64,000 bases of DNA, taken from Candidatus Uhrbacteria bacterium (GTDB lineage: Bacteria; Patescibacteriota; Patescibacteriia; 2-12-FULL-60-25). The notes under the pieces were generated by a model. The model worked only from the letters and a program-made list of their open reading frames with translations, did not search any database and was not told the origin of the DNA. A program made the position numbers and the translations under genes. Below, in pieces: positions 7,260-24,676 of this stretch; position 1 is the first letter of the stretch, and the number at the start of each line of letters is the position of its first letter. Location of the stretch: the NCBI GenBank assembly GCA_020854265.1, contig JADZFU010000004.1:186001-250000 (forward strand). Reading direction: 5' to 3'.

Positions 7260-8639
7260 ATGCAGCCGACCGGTTCCGATATCGGCAAAGCCGTTTCATT
7301 CAATACGATCGCATCATGGGCCGCCAAAATTGGTCATTTTGCAGCGGCATTGATGATATTTCGGCTGGTTGACCCGGCTGCGTATGGCGAGTGGCGATTG
7401 ATATTGGCCGCTTGGGCATTGGTGCAAGGCTGGCTGGCATCAGCTGTGTCGGTCATCAACGTTGAATATATCCGTACCCATGCCGAAGGGGATCAGGCTG
7501 GCTTTGATGGCAAAGCAGCCTTTGCAGGTTATGCAAAAATTGTCGCGCTGGTATCCACACTTTTCGCCATTGGCTGTCTGCTTGCTCCAGAAATGGTCAG
7601 CCGTATCGTCGGTGCAGACGATCTTTTTTTGATCCGTCTTATCTCGGCATATTTCTTTTTGTATATCCCGCGTGCCATCGGTGCAGCTTGGATGCCCATG
7701 GCTTTTGCTTTTGGAAGGAGCTTGATTGTTACAACGGTTGAAACATTTTCCTACGTAGCGGGATTGTTGATTTTTTTGGTGTGGCAGGGCCAGGGCGTAG
7801 TCGGCATTGCTTATGCACAGATACTCTCGACCGTATTCGGCGTGATTTGCATCGCATATCTTTTTCCTGATCTTCGCAAAGCAATTCCATTCCATAAAAC
7901 CGGCGCACAAATCAAAGCGTTGTTCCGTATCATACGCCAACATGGAAAGTGGGCTGTTGCCACGGATGCTTTGAAAGATGCTTTGGATGCCGCGCGTTAT
8001 CGCTGGCTTTCGTTTGCAATCGGGAATGAAGCAGTCGGTTTATTTGGGTTGGCAGAATCGTTGCTTGGTCATGTGGTCTCGCTGGTTTCAGCGGGCGCGC
8101 CGATTGCCTCCATGATTCCGCGTTTTGTAAAAGACCGTGAACGGCTTATCGGAACGATGAAGCGCGCCTCCCGTGTCGGTACCGCGGTTTCGGCGGGGTT
8201 GTTCCTTTTTGGCTGGGTATTTGTACCTATCTTTATTCCGGTGCTTTTTCCGAAATATATCCCATCGCTTCCGCTGTATCTTGGTATCTCGCCTGTGGTG
8301 CTTGTGTCTGGATTCGGGCTCGTGATCAATGCGGTCTATCCTGCGCTTCGATTCCAAAAACCGTTATTCCTGATGCTGTCTATCCGTGCAATCCTGTCGT
8401 TATCGATTTTGTATCTTTTCATCCCGATATTTGGAATCTCAACATTAGCCATCGAGTTCCTTACCGGTTCGCTTGTATTTTTAGGCATGCGTTGGATGTA
8501 TTTGCGTGGTAAATTAGGCGAGAAATTGTTACTGCGAGACTTTCTCATTCCAAAAAAACAGGACTTGCTTGATATTTGGACTTTTGTCTGGAATCGTGTG
8601 CGTGGCTTGAAATCAAACATTTATGAACGAATTGCTTAA
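7260..8639 (+). CDS. Oligosaccharide/polysaccharide flippase (MOP superfamily, Wzx-like)
   Basis: A 459-residue integral membrane protein with about a dozen hydrophobic segments. The N-terminal KAVSFNTIASWAAKIGHFAAA resembles polysaccharide-biosynthesis exporters of the MOP (MATE/Wzx/MurJ) superfamily. The ATG at 7260 follows the previous TGA with one base between, and is preferred to 7224 inside the upstream gene. It probably flips the lipid-linked glycan made by the neighbouring glycosyltransferases across the cytoplasmic membrane. Family assignment rests on topology and context more than on invariant residues. Confidence 0.72.
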   Translation: MQPTGSDIGKAVSFNTIASWAAKIGHFAAALMIFRLVDPAAYGEWRLILAAWALVQGWLASAVSVINVEYIRTHAEGDQAGFDGKAAFAGYAKIVALVSTLFAIGCLLAPEMVSRIVGADDLFLIRLISAYFFLYIPRAIGAAWMPMAFAFGRSLIVTTVETFSYVAGLLIFLVWQGQGVVGIAYAQILSTVFGVICIAYLFPDLRKAIPFHKTGAQIKALFRIIRQHGKWAVATDALKDALDAARYRWLSFAIGNEAVGLFGLAESLLGHVVSLVSAGAPIASMIPRFVKDRERLIGTMKRASRVGTAVSAGLFLFGWVFVPIFIPVLFPKYIPSLPLYLGISPVVLVSGFGLVINAVYPALRFQKPLFLMLSIRAILSLSILYLFIPIFGISTLAIEFLTGSLVFLGMRWMYLRGKLGEKLLLRDFLIPKKQDLLDIWTFVWNRVRGLKSNIYERIA

Positions 8640-9381
8640 GCCAATCTTGAGCCGCGAGCCGATACGTTTTGAAAATGGTGCTGCTATTTTTTCCGAATCC
8701 GAATCATCGACGATAAAAGAGCGCAAAGCGCCAACTGATTATGGGAGCTGGTCACGCATCCGCAAATCTCACTACCTTTTTTATAAAAATCAACTTGCAA
8801 AAATAAATAAAGATTCGATTTTTCTAGATATCGGAGCTGGCGATCGTCATTTCCGAGAGCTTTTTGATCAATTTCCACATTATATTGCCGTTGATTTTGC
8901 AGCGTATCCCGATATTTCGATCGTATGCGATCTCACATCAAGCTGGCCTATCCGCGATTGGAGTGTTGATACGGTGATTGCATCGAATGTTTTTGAGCAT
9001 CTGCCTGATACAGCAGCCGCGTTGTCCGAAAGCGCACGTATTCTTAAGCCTGGCGGCAAGCTTCTTATCGCCGTTCCATTTTTACTCGGCGTACATCAGG
9101 CGCCGTATGATTTTGTCAGACATACGCATTATTCCTGGAAGCGCTTGCTCGAGCAGGCAGGATTTGAAATTTTGGAAATCAATGCATCCGGAAATTTATA
9201 CGACTTGCATGCGACCATGCGCGACAAGACTCATCCGCGTATGGGGATGACGGCTTTGAAATTTTCAAATCGGATTCTTAAATTTATCGAATGGTTATTT
9301 TCTCCATTCTATATGCGTACACCAAAAGATTTGGACTTGTGTCTTGGATATGAGATCTTGGCAATCAAACGTCCGATATGA
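8623..9381 (+). CDS. Class I SAM-dependent methyltransferase
   Basis: A 252-residue methyltransferase. Motif I is FLDIGAGDRHFREL near residue 66. An acid follows in VDFAAYPD, and SNVFEHLPDTAAALSE plus LKPGGKLLIAVPF complete the Methyltransf_11 pattern. It overlaps the flippase gene by 17 bases and the next gene by ATGA, so it is within the same operon. It is one of four methyltransferases in the first 11 kb, suggesting a heavily O-methylated glycan. The substrate is not identifiable. Confidence 0.78.
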   Translation: MNELLKPILSREPIRFENGAAIFSESESSTIKERKAPTDYGSWSRIRKSHYLFYKNQLAKINKDSIFLDIGAGDRHFRELFDQFPHYIAVDFAAYPDISIVCDLTSSWPIRDWSVDTVIASNVFEHLPDTAAALSESARILKPGGKLLIAVPFLLGVHQAPYDFVRHTHYSWKRLLEQAGFEILEINASGNLYDLHATMRDKTHPRMGMTALKFSNRILKFIEWLFSPFYMRTPKDLDLCLGYEILAIKRPI

Positions 9382-10268
9382 TCAAAGGAATACTCAAAAA
9401 AATTTATTACCGAGTACGCGCTTCAACCCCGGTATGGAATGCATTGAATGCAAAGTCCCGCAAAGAATTTATTTCGTTTGAATCGTCCTTGACCGGTGTC
9501 TCTAGGAGAATCGCTGATGATTTAACGCACGATGGAATTGCTATTTCAAATTTGGAAGAGCTAGGCGCACCCAGTCTAGAAGCATTTAGGCGATTTGTTG
9601 CAGAACGAAGCGCAATGGCTGCGAGCACGACCAAAAAAACATTTCTTCGTGAACTGATCGATTTGCGCCCATTATACAATCCGTCCGAACCGATTTGGGG
9701 TTTTGCTCTGCATCCGTCCGTCGTTGGCGCTGTCGATTTATATTTTGGTTTGGTTGCACGTTTTTATTATCTTTATGCAGCCGTGGCAGGAGTCATGCCG
9801 GACGGAGAAGAGGCGAAGCAGTCACAACGCTGGCATCGTGATCCCGAAGACAGGCAAATGTGCAAGGTATTCGTCTATCTTACGGATGTTGATGCGGGTT
9901 CCGGCCCATTTATCTATGCAAAAGAGTCGCATCGTATGGGTGCGTATTCGCATGTGTCGCCGCAAAAGCCGCCAGCAGGCTCATATCCGCCAGAAGGTCT
10001 TGTCGAAGCCAGCATTCCGGCTGAAAAAATCATGACATGTTACGGAAAAGCTGGAACGGTCATCTTTGCCGATACAGCCGGCCTGCATAGAGGCGGTTAT
10101 TGTACGGAACGCGAACGTATCATGGTGACCGCCGGATATGTATCAGACGCCTCGCCATGGCCGACGCGCTACGCTCTCCCGCCAGGGTTTGATCCTTCCA
10201 GTGTCGAGCCTCCTGTTCGTGCGGCGCTTGCAAGCCGGAAGCGATCGTGGGATTCTGCCGGCTATTAA
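9378..10268 (+). CDS. Phytanoyl-CoA dioxygenase (PhyH)-like Fe(II)/2-oxoglutarate oxygenase
   Basis: A 296-residue protein of the PhyH family. The iron ligands are visible as H153 and D155 in QRWHRDPED and a distal H237 in ADTAGLHRGG. A following arginine (ERERIM) could bind the 2-oxoglutarate carboxylate. Family members hydroxylate unactivated carbons using O2 and 2-oxoglutarate. In a glycan operon between two methyltransferases it may hydroxylate a lipid or sugar intermediate; that role is inferred. An O2-dependent enzyme is notable if the host is an anaerobic fermenter. Start by ATGA overlap. Confidence 0.78.
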   Translation: MIKGILKKIYYRVRASTPVWNALNAKSRKEFISFESSLTGVSRRIADDLTHDGIAISNLEELGAPSLEAFRRFVAERSAMAASTTKKTFLRELIDLRPLYNPSEPIWGFALHPSVVGAVDLYFGLVARFYYLYAAVAGVMPDGEEAKQSQRWHRDPEDRQMCKVFVYLTDVDAGSGPFIYAKESHRMGAYSHVSPQKPPAGSYPPEGLVEASIPAEKIMTCYGKAGTVIFADTAGLHRGGYCTERERIMVTAGYVSDASPWPTRYALPPGFDPSSVEPPVRAALASRKRSWDSAGY

Positions 10269-10269
10269 T

Positions 10270-11034
10270 ATGGAATCTGCAGCATCCATCGAGAAGCGCT
10301 ATTCTGACTCTGGCCGTTATTTTCGCGGGAAATATCATGAGCAGGGTATCGAGGCTATCAAGCAGCATGCCTCGCGTCATCCGTTTTTTAAAAACGTGTT
10401 ATATCGCGACTATCGTCCGCGTCATTTGCTCCGTTATTTGTGTATTGCAGAAGTTTTTCCGGAACCACTTACTGCAGAAATGATACTTGATGTTGGCAGC
10501 CGAGATCGCAGTTTGGAAGAGGTATTGAAGCGGCCATGTTCGCTCGTCGATAAAAATAATCCAAACTTACCTTCATGGGATTGGGAGAAAGAGTCTTTGC
10601 CGTATTCTGAGAGCGCATTCGATACCATTGTGTGTTTAGACACGCTTGAACACATCAACGATTTTCATGCCTCTTTTCAGGATTTATTAAGGGTATCCAA
10701 AAAGAATGTTATTATTTCATTGCCAAATTGCTGGCGTAAAATGTTCAAGCAGATGCTGAAGGGCAGGGGAGATGTTGCAAGCTACGGTTTGCCGCCAGAA
10801 AAACCGATGGATCGCCACAAGTGGTTTATGAATACGCAGGAGATCGAAGAATTTCTTGCATACCAGAGTGCGGCAGGCGAGCATCCGTATACGATCAAAA
10901 AAATCGTATACCATGTCCAAAATACTATTCCGCGCCACCGTATCCAGTATCCGCTTATGAAATGGTTATTGCCGGAACGGTATTTCAAAAATCTTTTAGT
11001 TAATAACGTATTCGTCTGGATTGAAAAGAAATAG
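10270..11034 (+). CDS. Methyltransferase-like protein with divergent SAM motif
   Basis: A 254-residue protein that ends the first operon. The expected motif I appears as ILDVGSRDRSLEEVL, with the usual GxGxG loop replaced by GSRDR. Later blocks (TIVCLDTLEHINDF and NVIISLPN) are typical of Methyltransf_11 proteins. The ATG at 10270 follows the previous TAA by one base; an in-frame ATG at 10138 would lie inside the dioxygenase gene. It may bind SAM weakly or act on an unusual substrate. A bidirectional terminator follows immediately. Confidence 0.7.
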   Translation: MESAASIEKRYSDSGRYFRGKYHEQGIEAIKQHASRHPFFKNVLYRDYRPRHLLRYLCIAEVFPEPLTAEMILDVGSRDRSLEEVLKRPCSLVDKNNPNLPSWDWEKESLPYSESAFDTIVCLDTLEHINDFHASFQDLLRVSKKNVIISLPNCWRKMFKQMLKGRGDVASYGLPPEKPMDRHKWFMNTQEIEEFLAYQSAAGEHPYTIKKIVYHVQNTIPRHRIQYPLMKWLLPERYFKNLLVNNVFVWIEKK

Positions 11035-17903: not shown

Positions 17904-17949
17904 AAAACAGCTGTGATGAAGTCCTCATCACAGCTGTTTTTCTTTTTTT
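17904..17949 (+). terminator. Very strong intrinsic terminator
   Basis: A 16-bp perfect stem (17904-17919 with 17925-17940), a 5-base loop and a T-rich tail to 17949 close the GC-rich segment. Confidence 0.93.
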
Positions 17950-17952
17950 CGT

Positions 17953-19719
17953 ATGACGCAGATCGCCATCATGGGGACGGGCATGGTCGGGGGAGCTATC
18001 GATCGATACTTCCGACTTCATGGCGTTCAAGCCGGTTTATTTGATCCGCCCAAGGGATTGTCGGATCCTTCCGTTCTCGCAAATGCCGACGTGATTTTTA
18101 TTGCAGTTCCAACCCCGTACTATTTGGACGGATCGGGATTTGATGATTCGTATTTGAGGGCCGCGATTGAGGCGATACCGGTTCCTGGGAAAACCATAGT
18201 ACTCAAGTCCACGATTTTGCCTGGCACAACCGAACACATGCAGAGGGAGTATCCGATGCACCGATTTTTGTTTAATCCGGAGTTCCTGACGGAAACCACG
18301 GCCGATCGTGATATGCAGTTTCCGAATCGGCAAATTGTCGGTTATACGGCCGAGAGCCGACGCGACGCCGAATTGGTCATGGGGATGCTTCCGCGCGCCC
18401 CGTTTGAACGGATTGTTCCGGCAACAGAAGCCGAAACCGTCAAATATTTCGGGAATGCGTTTTATGCACTCAAGGTCGCGTATGCAAACCAAATGTTCGA
18501 TTTATGCAAAACGCTTGGGATTGATTACGAGATTGTAAAAGAATGCGCAAAGGCCGAGCCCTGGATGGGAACGCACCATTGGGAGATCTTCCATAAAGGC
18601 TATCGCGGTTATGGAGGAAAATGTTTGCCAAAGGATACGCGCGCCATTATCCAGCTGGGGGACAGGGTCGGATCCGAGCTCACAATTTTGAAGCAAGCGG
18701 AAGAATATAATAATATTATTGCCAAGGCGCAAGGTATTGATATCCAATGGGAGGAGGGTTCGCCCAAAAAGCAAAGTACTCCCAGTTTTTTAAAAGCCAT
18801 GCCCAAACGGTATCTCGTTACTGGCGGAGCGGGATTTATCGGCTCGACTCTGGTCGATGCATTGATTTTGCAAGGGCACCAGGTACGCGTGATCGATAAT
18901 TTATCGACGGGAAAACGCGATCGCGTAAATGCACAAGCCGAATTTATCTTGGCAGATTTTACCGATTTGGATCAGATAAAAAACCATTTCCATGGTATTG
19001 ACGGCGTATTCCATGTCGGAGCTTTGCCGCGTATCCCGTTTTCGATCGAGCATCCGCTGCCTGCAGCCGTAGCAAATGTCATGGGCACGCTCAATGTGTT
19101 TGTTGCCGCACGCGATGCTGGCGTGAAACGCGTCGTGTACAGCGCTTCTTCATCCGCGTATGGGGCGCAAGAGACTTTGCCGCTTCGTCCGGATATGCCG
19201 GCAAATCCGTTGAATCCATACGCGCTGCACAAATATATCGGGGAAAAGATCGCGGAACAGTTCCATCGTTTTTACGGCATGGAAACCGTGTCGCTCCGTT
19301 ATTTCAACGTATATGGTCCGCGCATGGCCGATGAAGGTGCGTATGTTACGGTGATTTCCCATTTTGTACGCCAATACAAAGCGGGACAGCCGCTAACCGT
19401 TCACGGAGATGGCGAGCAATCACGCGATTTTACGCATGTGTACGATGTCGTGCGTGCGAATTTGCTTGCGATGGAAAGCGCACGTGTGGGACGAGGCGAA
19501 GTCTTGAATGTCGGAGCAGGCGAACGTCACAGCATGAACAAGATTGCGGATATTTTTGGCGGCCCGCGTACGTATACGGAAGCACGCAAGGGAGAAGCGC
19601 GTCATACACAGGCGGATATTTCGCTTACACGCGAATTACTCGGCTGGGAACCGCATATCCGGTTTGACGATGGGATACGCCAATTACTCCGCGATCAGGG
19701 GATCCATCCTGCGTTTTAA
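17953..19719 (+). CDS. Fusion: UDP-glucose/GDP-mannose dehydrogenase-like + NAD-dependent SDR epimerase
   Basis: A 588-residue protein. Residues 1-270 contain the UDP-sugar dehydrogenase Rossmann domain (IAIMGTGMVGGAI), the central FNPEFLTE and KYFGNAFYALKVAYANQ blocks, and the catalytic cysteine C224 in GYGGKCLPKDT. The usual C-terminal UDP-binding domain is missing. From M283 a complete extended SDR follows: LVTGGAGFIGSTLV, SASSSAYG and Y423xxxK427 in NPYALHKY. The family pairing suggests UDP-sugar oxidation to a uronate combined with C4 epimerisation or decarboxylation. An internal start at 18799 could also make the SDR alone. There is no promoter or Shine-Dalgarno between the terminator and the ATG. 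Confidence 0.8.
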   Translation: MTQIAIMGTGMVGGAIDRYFRLHGVQAGLFDPPKGLSDPSVLANADVIFIAVPTPYYLDGSGFDDSYLRAAIEAIPVPGKTIVLKSTILPGTTEHMQREYPMHRFLFNPEFLTETTADRDMQFPNRQIVGYTAESRRDAELVMGMLPRAPFERIVPATEAETVKYFGNAFYALKVAYANQMFDLCKTLGIDYEIVKECAKAEPWMGTHHWEIFHKGYRGYGGKCLPKDTRAIIQLGDRVGSELTILKQAEEYNNIIAKAQGIDIQWEEGSPKKQSTPSFLKAMPKRYLVTGGAGFIGSTLVDALILQGHQVRVIDNLSTGKRDRVNAQAEFILADFTDLDQIKNHFHGIDGVFHVGALPRIPFSIEHPLPAAVANVMGTLNVFVAARDAGVKRVVYSASSSAYGAQETLPLRPDMPANPLNPYALHKYIGEKIAEQFHRFYGMETVSLRYFNVYGPRMADEGAYVTVISHFVRQYKAGQPLTVHGDGEQSRDFTHVYDVVRANLLAMESARVGRGEVLNVGAGERHSMNKIADIFGGPRTYTEARKGEARHTQADISLTRELLGWEPHIRFDDGIRQLLRDQGIHPAF

Positions 19720-22632: not shown

Positions 22633-23652
22633 ATGGCTACGAAGCACAAGGTTATTGACCGCAAGAATATTCTTGTAACCGGTGGTGCCGGTTTTATCGG
22701 TTCCCATCTGTGCGATGCGCTGGTCAAAGACCACCACGTCATCTGCATGGATAATTTTTCAACAAGCACGGTTGCGAATATCGAACATCTTTTACAAAAT
22801 CCGAATTTTGAATTCATCAATCACGATATTACCCAGCCATTCGATTTGGCGAGCTATCCGGAGCTGGAGCGTTTTAAGGTCAAGTTCCAAGGGATACAAG
22901 AGATCTACCATTTGGCATGTCCGATTTCCAAACGGCATTTCGAACAATTCAAAATCGCCACGGTTTTGACCAATTCGATCGGCGTAAAACACGTGCTTGA
23001 TGTCGCGGTCGCAAACCAAGCAAAAGTACTCTACGCTTCATCGTCGGTTTTATACGGTCCGCGCCAAGCGGAGCGTCCATATGTTTCGGAAGGAGATCCG
23101 TGTTTTATCGACCATCTCACATCGCGCGGCGCTTACGACGAGGGTAAGCGTTTTAGCGAGGCGATTTTGCAGACGTATGCCGATGTGTACGGTTTGGATG
23201 TCAAAATTGCACGTATTTTCCGTACCTATGGAACGCGCATGAAACTGTTCGACGGGAACTTACTGCCGGATATCATCAATAACGCGATTGACGGAACCGA
23301 TATCGAATTACACGCTCCGGAGGATGCGAAGATCAGCCTGTGTTATGTTTCGGATATTATCGACGGCATGGTGCGCCACATGAATACGCCGATTGAAATC
23401 ACGGTCGTGAATCTCGGGTCTGACCAAGAAATGTACCTCTCGAGCGTCGCCGCAATGGTGACCAAATTGGTCGAGTCATCTTCGCGCATCCGTTTTCAAG
23501 TCTCGTCCCATCCATTTTCAGAACCGGCGCTTCCGGATCTTACAAAAGCCCGCCAAGTACTTGGATGGATTCCGCTTGTCCGTGTCGAGGACGGGCTCCG
23601 CCAAATGATCGAATATGCGCGTTCCCGCCGACAACAGCAGAACGCATTCTAA
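22633..23652 (+). CDS. UDP-glucuronate decarboxylase (UXS)-like SDR, copy 1
   Basis: A 339-residue extended SDR. LVTGGAGFIGSHLCDALV binds NAD, YASSSVLYG gives the catalytic serine, and Y168/K172 lie in the YDEGKR motif characteristic of UDP-xylose synthases. RIFRTYGTRM has T where copy 2 has P. It probably converts UDP-glucuronate, which the adjacent dehydrogenase fusion could make, to UDP-xylose or a 4-keto relative. It has its own consensus -10 and appears leaderless. The gene is a tandem paralogue of the next one. Confidence 0.8.
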   Translation: MATKHKVIDRKNILVTGGAGFIGSHLCDALVKDHHVICMDNFSTSTVANIEHLLQNPNFEFINHDITQPFDLASYPELERFKVKFQGIQEIYHLACPISKRHFEQFKIATVLTNSIGVKHVLDVAVANQAKVLYASSSVLYGPRQAERPYVSEGDPCFIDHLTSRGAYDEGKRFSEAILQTYADVYGLDVKIARIFRTYGTRMKLFDGNLLPDIINNAIDGTDIELHAPEDAKISLCYVSDIIDGMVRHMNTPIEITVVNLGSDQEMYLSSVAAMVTKLVESSSRIRFQVSSHPFSEPALPDLTKARQVLGWIPLVRVEDGLRQMIEYARSRRQQQNAF

Positions 23653-23653
23653 T

Positions 23654-24676
23654 ATGGCCGACAAACCAATGTTCGAAAAAAAGAACGTGCTCGTGACCGG
23701 CGGTGCCGGATTTATCGGTTCGCATCTGTGCGATGCGCTTCTCAAAGATGCGCGCGTCATCTGTCTCGACAATTTTTCCACGAGCCAAGAGTCGAATATC
23801 GACCACCTGCTCAAAAATCCTGATTTCGAATTCATCCGCCATGACATTACCCAGCCATTTGATCCGGAAGCATTCCCAGAGCTGGCCCGTTTCAAAGTAA
23901 AGTTCCAAGGGATTCAGGAGATTTACCATCTTGCTTGTCCAACAAGTCCAAAAAAATTTGAGCAGTATCGCATGCAGACGCTGTATGCGAACAGTCTCGG
24001 CATGAAGAATGCGCTTGATCTCGGCGTTCGTTACAAGGCGAAAGTCATCCACACATCTACGTCGGTTGTATACGGGCCGCGTCCTGCAGACGGACATGGA
24101 TTCCGCGAAGAAGAATTTGGCGCAGTGGACGTGCTCAGTCCGCGCGCGTGTTATGACGAGGGCAAGCGCTTTGCCGAGTCGTGCTGCGCAACTTATAAAC
24201 AAGTGCATAATCTCGACGTGCGGATCGCACGTATTTTCCGAACGTATGGACCGCGCATGCCGCTGTTTGACGGACAGATGATTCCGGATTTCATCACGAA
24301 TGCATTAGACGGAGTTGATCTCGAGATTTTTGGCGACGAGACCTTCCGCACATCGCTCGTGTACGTAACCGATGTGGTAGATGGCATGATCAAAATGATG
24401 GCGGCGCCGCAGGATATCGGACCGGTAAATCTCGGCAGCGATATCGATGTACCGATTATGGATGTCGCGAACCGGCTGCTCGAGATGACGGGTTCTTCAT
24501 CCAAAATTACTTTCAAGGGCGAGCTATTGTTCATGACCCAGCTTGGACTTCCTGATCTGACCAAGGCAAAAGAACAGCTAGGCTGGATTCCGCTTATTAC
24601 GCTGGACGAAGGGCTCAAGAAAACCATTGATTATACGATTGCGAATAAGAGCTTGCTTAGTTTTAAGCAGTTCTAG
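23654..24676 (+). CDS. UDP-glucuronate decarboxylase (UXS)-like SDR, copy 2
   Basis: A 340-residue paralogue of the preceding enzyme. It has the same LVTGGAGFIGSHLCDALL, a long shared KVKFQGIQEIYHLACP segment, a THTSTSVVYG-type catalytic region (seen as IHTSTSVVYG) and Y167 in CYDEGKR. RIFRTYGPRM keeps the canonical proline. One base separates it from copy 1. Differences in the active-site loop and C-terminal half suggest the two copies may act on different UDP-sugars or form a heteromer (inference). Confidence 0.8.
   Translation: MADKPMFEKKNVLVTGGAGFIGSHLCDALLKDARVICLDNFSTSQESNIDHLLKNPDFEFIRHDITQPFDPEAFPELARFKVKFQGIQEIYHLACPTSPKKFEQYRMQTLYANSLGMKNALDLGVRYKAKVIHTSTSVVYGPRPADGHGFREEEFGAVDVLSPRACYDEGKRFAESCCATYKQVHNLDVRIARIFRTYGPRMPLFDGQMIPDFITNALDGVDLEIFGDETFRTSLVYVTDVVDGMIKMMAAPQDIGPVNLGSDIDVPIMDVANRLLEMTGSSSKITFKGELLFMTQLGLPDLTKAKEQLGWIPLITLDEGLKKTIDYTIANKSLLSFKQF

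Follow-up and report, generated by a model that had tools for sequence, protein, structure and literature searches.

A UDP-sugar dehydrogenase without the UDP-binding domain, fused to a putative C4-epimerase, and its compact relatives in Patescibacteria and viral contigs

How could a UDP-sugar dehydrogenase (UGD) work without the domain that binds UDP, and does an SDR joined to it take the place of that domain? These questions are raised by an intact ORF (17953-19719, 588 amino acids, no internal stop) in a 64,000-nucleotide stretch of the genome of a Candidatus Uhrbacteria bacterium, hereafter the window. Its first 275 residues correspond to a nucleotide-sugar dehydrogenase in which the core catalytic residues are present and the UDP-binding domain (PF03720) is absent, and residues 283-588 correspond to an extended SDR of the C4-epimerase class (Table 1).

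Pfam searches identify UDPG_MGDP_dh_N (PF03721, residues 42-137) and UDPG_MGDP_dh (PF00984, residues 159-254), both above cut-off, and an Epimerase domain (residues 288-521, E-value = 8e-63); UDPG_MGDP_dh_C (PF03720) is absent from the 588-aa protein at an E-value of 0.1. The UGD half scores below the cut-off of the NCBIfam model for nucleotide sugar dehydrogenases (TIGR03026, 143.1 against 189.8 bits). C224 is the cysteine of GGKCLPKD, and the roles of the catalytic set in Table 1 are those that we assume from studied UGDs. The SDR half exhibits the motifs TGGAGFIG (290-297) and SASSSAYG (397-404), and Y423 and K427 of YxxxK, aligned with WbpP. A first-pass annotation had described a UGD with its catalytic C224 in place and its C-terminal UDP-binding domain missing, followed by an SDR from M283. 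Pfam and the position of the motif confirm the former description, and the latter also holds, the codon being 18799-18801.

Table 1. Features of the fused ORF and of two downstream genes (window coordinates)
Feature	Residues	Position	Strand	Basis or comparison
Compact UGD, NAD-binding and central helical domains	1-261	17953..18735	+	Pfam, AF2 model, match to 1DLI
Catalytic-set residues of the compact UGD	T87, E110, K164, N168, C224, K227, D228			Aligned short UGDs
Trp at the place of Arg in solved UGDs	204	18562..18564	+	Alignment
Arg in GYRGYGGKC, candidate phosphate contact	218	18604..18606	+	Phe or Leu in aligned solved UGDs
Short-UGD C-terminal tail, IDIQWEEGSPKKQS	262-275	18736..18777	+	WxxGSP conservation
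Linker at the place of the relatives' stop	276-282	18778..18798	+	Junction comparison, low pLDDT
Extended SDR, putative NDP-hexose(uronate) C4-epimerase class	283-588	18799..19716	+	WbpP sequence match, structure matches
UXS-like SDR (UDP-glucuronate decarboxylase class)		22633..23652	+	Human UXS1 (2B69), E-value 2.9e-60
Second UXS-like SDR		23615..24676	+	Human UXS1 (2B69), E-value 1.1e-69; shares an ACYDEGKR stretch with UXS1

The identical uninterrupted layout is present in a sister genome of the same genus (G002), with 84% identity. Between the two proteins pN/pS is 0.12/0.75 for the UGD half and 0.11/0.69 for the SDR half; with little protein change and silent sites near saturation, both halves look to be under purifying selection. 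In G001 (88% complete), the remaining genome of the genus, neither half is seen at high score. The window's own genome (1.0 Mb, rated 100% complete) contains five matches to the fusion protein, among which the UGD half is covered by the query alone. Its one PF00984 match is the fusion itself, and no PF03720 was found in it by a search that was positive in 14 of 14 control genomes. The search of relatives proposed in the first-pass annotation thus finds the fusion in a second species, and the normal full-length UGD, which would have made the window's gene a candidate decayed copy, was not found in the genome, nor was any other UGD or PF03720. These observations, and a tree that sets the short UGDs apart from full-length ones (L085_8501 excepted, see below), make a sequencing or assembly artefact, or decay from a normal UGD, exceedingly unlikely.

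Comparison of 17 junctions, two fused (window and G002) and 15 unfused, suggests that the fusion arose through loss of the stop separating two neighbouring genes. In all 15 unfused cases the UGD ends in a WxEGSP tail with a stop no more than about 30 residues later, and the gap from this stop to the SDR start ranges from a few bases to a few hundred. G030 and G033 have both genes in one frame, separated by two stops, and in G151, from another family, one TAA and three further codons separate them. A linker of about 10 residues replaces the stop in the window and G002. Among 22 family genomes with an unfused short UGD, the SDR lies just downstream in 16 and not just downstream in four (G010, G017, G026, G035); two are cut by contig ends (G021, G023).

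Whole-protein searches of 144 genomes (own included) found no uninterrupted fusion beyond the window and G002 among the matches listed, and those of 379 phylum genomes and 380 class genomes, with the best three candidates per genome, found no further fusion among the matches listed; the samples overlap. In this sampling the fusion occurs in a single genus, and its novelty is modest. Two other candidates were rejected: a 632-aa frame of G140 looks by eye like an Arg-rich open frame and not like a second domain, and G031, where a search placed both halves in 739-aa open frames, has at the DNA level two genes with a small gene between them. This small gene (L094, about 7880-8260) lies between the short UGD and the SDR; we take it to resemble the four-helix-bundle (23S rRNA intervening sequence) proteins.

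Separate synthesis of the SDR had been proposed to be possible from an internal ATG (18799), which is present in the window. At the SDR start, however, G002 reads FLKKKRYLV against FLKAMPKRYLV in the window, with no ATG, GTG or TTG before the SDR, so that the ATG is not a conserved second start. The sole Shine-Dalgarno-like run seen by eye (GGAGGAGGG, 18750-18758) lies 40 nt upstream of the ATG, too far to serve it. The proposal is thus not supported. The lack of a start in G002, where the SDR works in the fused state only, also bears on the possibility that the fusion is incidental, a stop-loss product that drift has let stand and that brings no advantage over unfused enzymes. Such an origin would fit its presence in two genomes of one genus only, and the few changes needed where the genes are in frame with one (G151) or two stops (G030, G033). 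However, the frame has been kept open across a divergence of pS about 0.7, and we consider an incidental fusion somewhat unlikely.

The absence of the UDP-binding domain is a trait of a whole compact lineage and no quirk of the fusion. The lineage comprises UGDs of about 260-290 residues across Patescibacteria and viral contigs. We aligned 45 of 47 short UGDs (that of the window and 46 others), leaving out one with a long extra end (L089) and one contig-edge piece (L103). The alignment exhibits 26 invariant positions, and every residue of the catalytic set in Table 1 is invariant in 45 of 45. A profile of the short UGDs matches in 110 of 286 phylum genomes, with two sorts of match. High-scoring matches (>200 bits) span the full length of the profile and, except for the fused window, lie in frames of 264-360 aa; low-scoring ones (<160 bits) lie mostly in frames of >400 aa. 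The boundary is not perfectly sharp, since some low-scoring frames are nonetheless short (G398, G522, G554, G530). When UGD matches of viral contigs, four phage records and 17 further genomes were taken together, fewer than 100 residues follow the catalytic cysteine in 96 of 102 rows, a count leaning to the short form because its viral set was chosen by the short profile.

A tree of the shared core places 137 short and 46 full-length rows (183 in all) on opposite sides of one branch with an SH-aLRT of 99. It was obtained by a quick search, and its midpoint root serves for drawing only. Its short rows were mostly picked by the short profile, its full rows are all from the phylum except phage SP-15, and the low-scoring short frames were left out, as were L226 (the window again), L223 (the very divergent phage CP220) and L085_8501. 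Once L223 and L085_8501 are restored (185 rows), the tree requires two changes. L085_8501, on a branch of 2.7, was classed as full by its length, but by Pfam it is a UGD without PF03720 joined to a methyltransferase.

Loss of the third domain could also be apparent only, if that domain were encoded as a separate subunit. PF03720 frames near short UGDs were rejected as candidates: one just upstream of the short UGD in G202 reaches the contig end (37,411), and those of G243 (contig 15,205) and G216 (contig 8,128) are likewise contig-end frames, so that all three look truncated by the contig boundary. In the class sample (285 genomes) PF00984 is found in 172 and PF03720 in 129. Six family genomes contain both a short UGD and PF03720 (G004, G011, G013, G015, G027, G031), as probably does G014, where the short gene is in pieces at contig ends. 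This coexistence within one genome indicates that the short form has a history of its own as a paralogue and is no truncated copy.

The first-pass annotation had suggested that the SDR might make up for the absent substrate contacts, the fused chain forming one composite active site. The recurrence of the short UGD and SDR neighbourhood agrees with this, as does the binding of UDP-sugars by SDRs of this class. Among 62 unfused short UGD genes of the phylum, however, an SDR lies downstream (a profile match within 700 nt on the same strand, thus a neighbour only) in 27 and not in 30, five being at contig edges. An SDR may lie elsewhere in these genomes, as its orthologue does on the short UGD's contig in G026, and the 30 include one gene that leads a tandem pair of UGDs ahead of an SDR. 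Among 79 viral short-UGD rows (L188 being a fragment) the SDR is downstream in eight, upstream in 19, neither in 51, with one at an edge. A profile search with SDR orthologues, which counts SDR relatives only and whose model covers the SDR, found no close orthologue in G035 (97% complete, best 159.5 bits), which has a short UGD; in G022, which has the orthologue, the only UGD found is full-length. In G072 and G134 the orthologue neighbours a full-length UGD, and it is also present in G006 and G008, where PF00984 was not found. Moreover, the linker is predicted to be floppy in the full-chain model, and another UGD without the C-terminal domain (G004) is fused to a methyltransferase instead. The short UGDs with no SDR next to them, the SDRs in genomes where the UGD is full-length or none was found, and the methyltransferase fusion make the partner look metabolic, not structural. 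A composite site is thus very unlikely, and the first-pass view of the SDR as source of the contacts is set aside on the 30 of 62 genes and the orthologues beside full-length UGDs. The WxxGSP tail and an adjacent SDR tend to occur together (15 of 19 against 6 of 20; Fisher p = 0.004; four edge rows and two fused rows left out). We rejected this as a sign of docking, because the tailed rows form one part of the tree and the association is not independent evidence.

The AF2 model of the UGD half (mean pLDDT 92.9, pTM 0.89) matches UGDH 1DLI with a Z of 26.1 and an rmsd of 1.9 Å over 255 aligned residues (model 2-263, chain 1-334). The full-chain model (mean pLDDT 82.1, pTM 0.55) does not settle the placement of the domains; its pLDDT is below 50 at 266-281, the tether, and at 208-223, the substrate loop. 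Compared with UGDH (1DLI, 2Q3E, 3PLR), the fusion's UGD shares the Rossmann NAD domain, the central helical domain and the catalytic T/E/K/N/C/D set. Unlike UGDH, it lacks the C-terminal UDP-binding Rossmann domain, has a shorter N-terminal domain, carries W204 for an arginine and ends in the WxxGSP tail.

A study of human UGDH describes the second Rossmann fold as binding UDP and Arg260 as crossing the dimer to the glucose (PMC3184952). By alignment and by spacing to the catalytic cysteine, we infer that W204 stands at the place of this Arg260. Position 204 is R in 26, W in 10 and M in nine of the 45 aligned short UGDs, and 23 of the 45 have the WxxGSP tail. All 19 W/M rows have the tail, all 22 tailless rows keep R, and four rows have both tail and R. 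This distribution fits a gain of the tail first and a later loss of the arginine, possibly as a single event since the rows are related. Arg218 is R in 45 of 45 short UGDs and in 30 of 47 rows of a wider alignment including viral ones. Arg218 and the WxxGSP tail are candidates for UDP binding and leads for mutagenesis. In a tandem pair of short UGDs that precedes an SDR in G007 (L086, 7001-8704), the cross-dimer position is Met in the first and Arg in the second.

Tentatively, the short UGDs may be a separate, old class in which no UDP-binding domain is needed and the UDP-sugar would be held by Arg218 in the substrate loop and, in the window's family, by the WxxGSP tail, which would enter the partner subunit and replace the lost cross-dimer arginine; the lidless, open site would let the tethered epimerase take the uronate directly. 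Taken as a whole, this proposal is rather doubtful. The joint absence of the UDP-binding fold and the cross-dimer arginine makes another substrate or weak binding possible. In the extreme case the UGD half would be dead or redirected, acting on a substrate other than a nucleotide sugar or serving the SDR as an NAD-binding scaffold. The missing domain, the W or M at position 204 in 19 of 45 rows and a fold near (Z about 20) that of the beta-hydroxyacid dehydrogenases, enzymes without a third domain, could be read in this way. However, all 45 aligned short UGDs share the catalytic set with C224, and to our knowledge hydroxyacid dehydrogenases do not use such a cysteine; protein change between the window and G002 is low, and UGDs are clearly the nearest in structure (Z 26 against 20). 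We think a dead or redirected UGD half improbable.

It is probable that the fused protein is a bifunctional enzyme whose compact UGD oxidises a UDP-hexose to the UDP-uronate and whose tethered SDR inverts C4. In this scheme the compact UGD would oxidise its substrate, probably UDP-glucose and possibly UDP-GlcNAc, twice with NAD+ via C224; the SDR would then invert C4 of the UDP-uronate to yield UDP-galacturonate or UDP-GalNAcA, and the product would be destined for a cell-surface polysaccharide. The flexible tether would hold the two steps together and at equal dose. We infer here the reactions, their substrate and order, any channelling, and the activity of a compact UGD without UDP-binding domain. 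The most economical version is UDP-Glc to UDP-GlcA, and then to UDP-GalA by the fused SDR or to UDP-xylose by the UXS-like neighbours. An N-acetyl version, UDP-GlcNAc to UDP-GalNAcA, is possible by analogy with the TviB/TviC or WbpO/WbpP type of pathway, which performs this conversion. The occurrence of this type of SDR beside full-length UGDs in G072 and G134 also suggests a functional pair of dehydrogenase and epimerase.

Among PDB sequences the SDR half matches WbpP best (E-value = 5e-58), with UXS1 at about 1e-39. The best structure matches are 4ZRM (Z 40.2), WbpP 1SB9 (38.0), 6ZLK, a UDP-GlcA 4-epimerase (34.8), and UXS1 2B69 (34.8), and 7YS8 is also among the nearest solved C4-epimerase structures. 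The substrates of these solved neighbours include UDP-Glc, UDP-GlcNAc and UDP-GlcA, and UXS1 comes fairly close to the top structure match (Z 34.8 against 40.2). The proposed substrate follows from class resemblance. The first-pass annotation had envisaged a single enzyme that oxidises and epimerises or decarboxylates. The fusion, with oxidation and epimerisation as its simplest reading, agrees with the first alternative; decarboxylation is not favoured, as the SDR scores best with C4-epimerases, and it fits the two downstream UXS-like genes better than the fused SDR. According to a study of a UDP-GlcA 4-epimerase, a serine helps to hold the carboxylate, disfavouring decarboxylation (PMC11519531). 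By analogy, the SSS motif of the fused SDR is a candidate for the same role.

Short UGDs are also known from phages and a plasmid. Those of Campylobacter phage CP220 (256 aa) and phage C48C1 (319 aa) have no room for a third domain, and that of a Kitasatospora plasmid (262 aa) has no PF03720 by Pfam. All differ from the window's protein in being separate genes, although a nucleotide-sugar epimerase gene adjoins the unfused C48C1 gene, and they are about 28-34% identical to the window's UGD. The plasmid gene (L279, 3001-3789; protein WP_331727174.1) is annotated as a hypothetical protein and has an aminotransferase and a Gfo/Idh/MocA gene beside it. Other phage UGDs are longer (SP-15, Sf-FS3, Kuja and Molly_5, about 380-440 aa). 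Pairs of an Azospirillum plasmid, Vibrio phage Kuja and Maribacter phage Molly_5 looked similar in tblastn and were rejected, their UGDs being longer by coordinates (478, 413 and 426 aa, respectively).

The fused SDR resembles the UDP-GlcNAc(A) C4-epimerases WbpP, TviC and WbgU in being an extended SDR with YxxxK, and falls far below the curated NCBIfam cut-off for TviC (185 against 760 bits). ArnA, an SDR decarboxylase fused to a formyltransferase, likewise places two UDP-sugar steps on one chain, and differs from the window's fusion in its partner and SDR class; genes neighbouring the fusion exhibit weak NCBIfam matches to ArnA. UGDs were observed in other fused or apparently fused proteins. 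In G004, of the same family, a UGD without the C-terminal domain is joined to a SAM methyltransferase (L085, about 8690-10324; PF00984, PF03721 and PF08241, no PF03720). In G219 a cytidylyltransferase (PF02348) is followed by a full-length UGD in a 723-aa open frame (L125, 6632-8800), and a 788-aa phage protein with a UGD domain in BFVD is an apparent fusion. Among the matches listed in a literature search, titles and abstract openings mention no UGD-epimerase fusion and no UGD without UDP-binding domain, and no activity of any short UGD was found.

The locus looks like a surface-polysaccharide region. Upstream genes resemble NeuB/PseI and PseF below the NCBIfam cut-offs, and a polyprenyl glycosylphosphotransferase (EPS_sugtrans) on the other strand scores over its cut-off. 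The frames of the two UXS-like genes overlap by 38 nt (23615-23652), and the second may in fact begin at a later Met. UXS acts on UDP-GlcA, and the fused protein, as the only UGD-type gene found in the genome, is the sole candidate found to make UDP-GlcA for these genes. GalU, which makes UDP-glucose, is weakly matched (51.8 bits, cut-off 326.8). A terminator-like hairpin at 17904-17940 (16 pairs and a T-run, fold z -7.1) lies upstream of the fusion, its end 12 nt short of the start codon. No Shine-Dalgarno sequence was seen there by eye, and a promoter scan found no sigma-70-like promoter. A counterpart of the hairpin is not evident by eye in G002.

The widespread UGD lineage without C-terminal domain is more interesting than the fusion itself. 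The fusion offers a natural test of dehydrogenase-to-epimerase channelling. The lineage extends widely over reduced bacterial genomes and viruses, and lacks the UDP-binding domain but retains the catalytic machinery. If active, the compact UGD would be a minimal NDP-sugar dehydrogenase and would reveal the purpose of the third domain.
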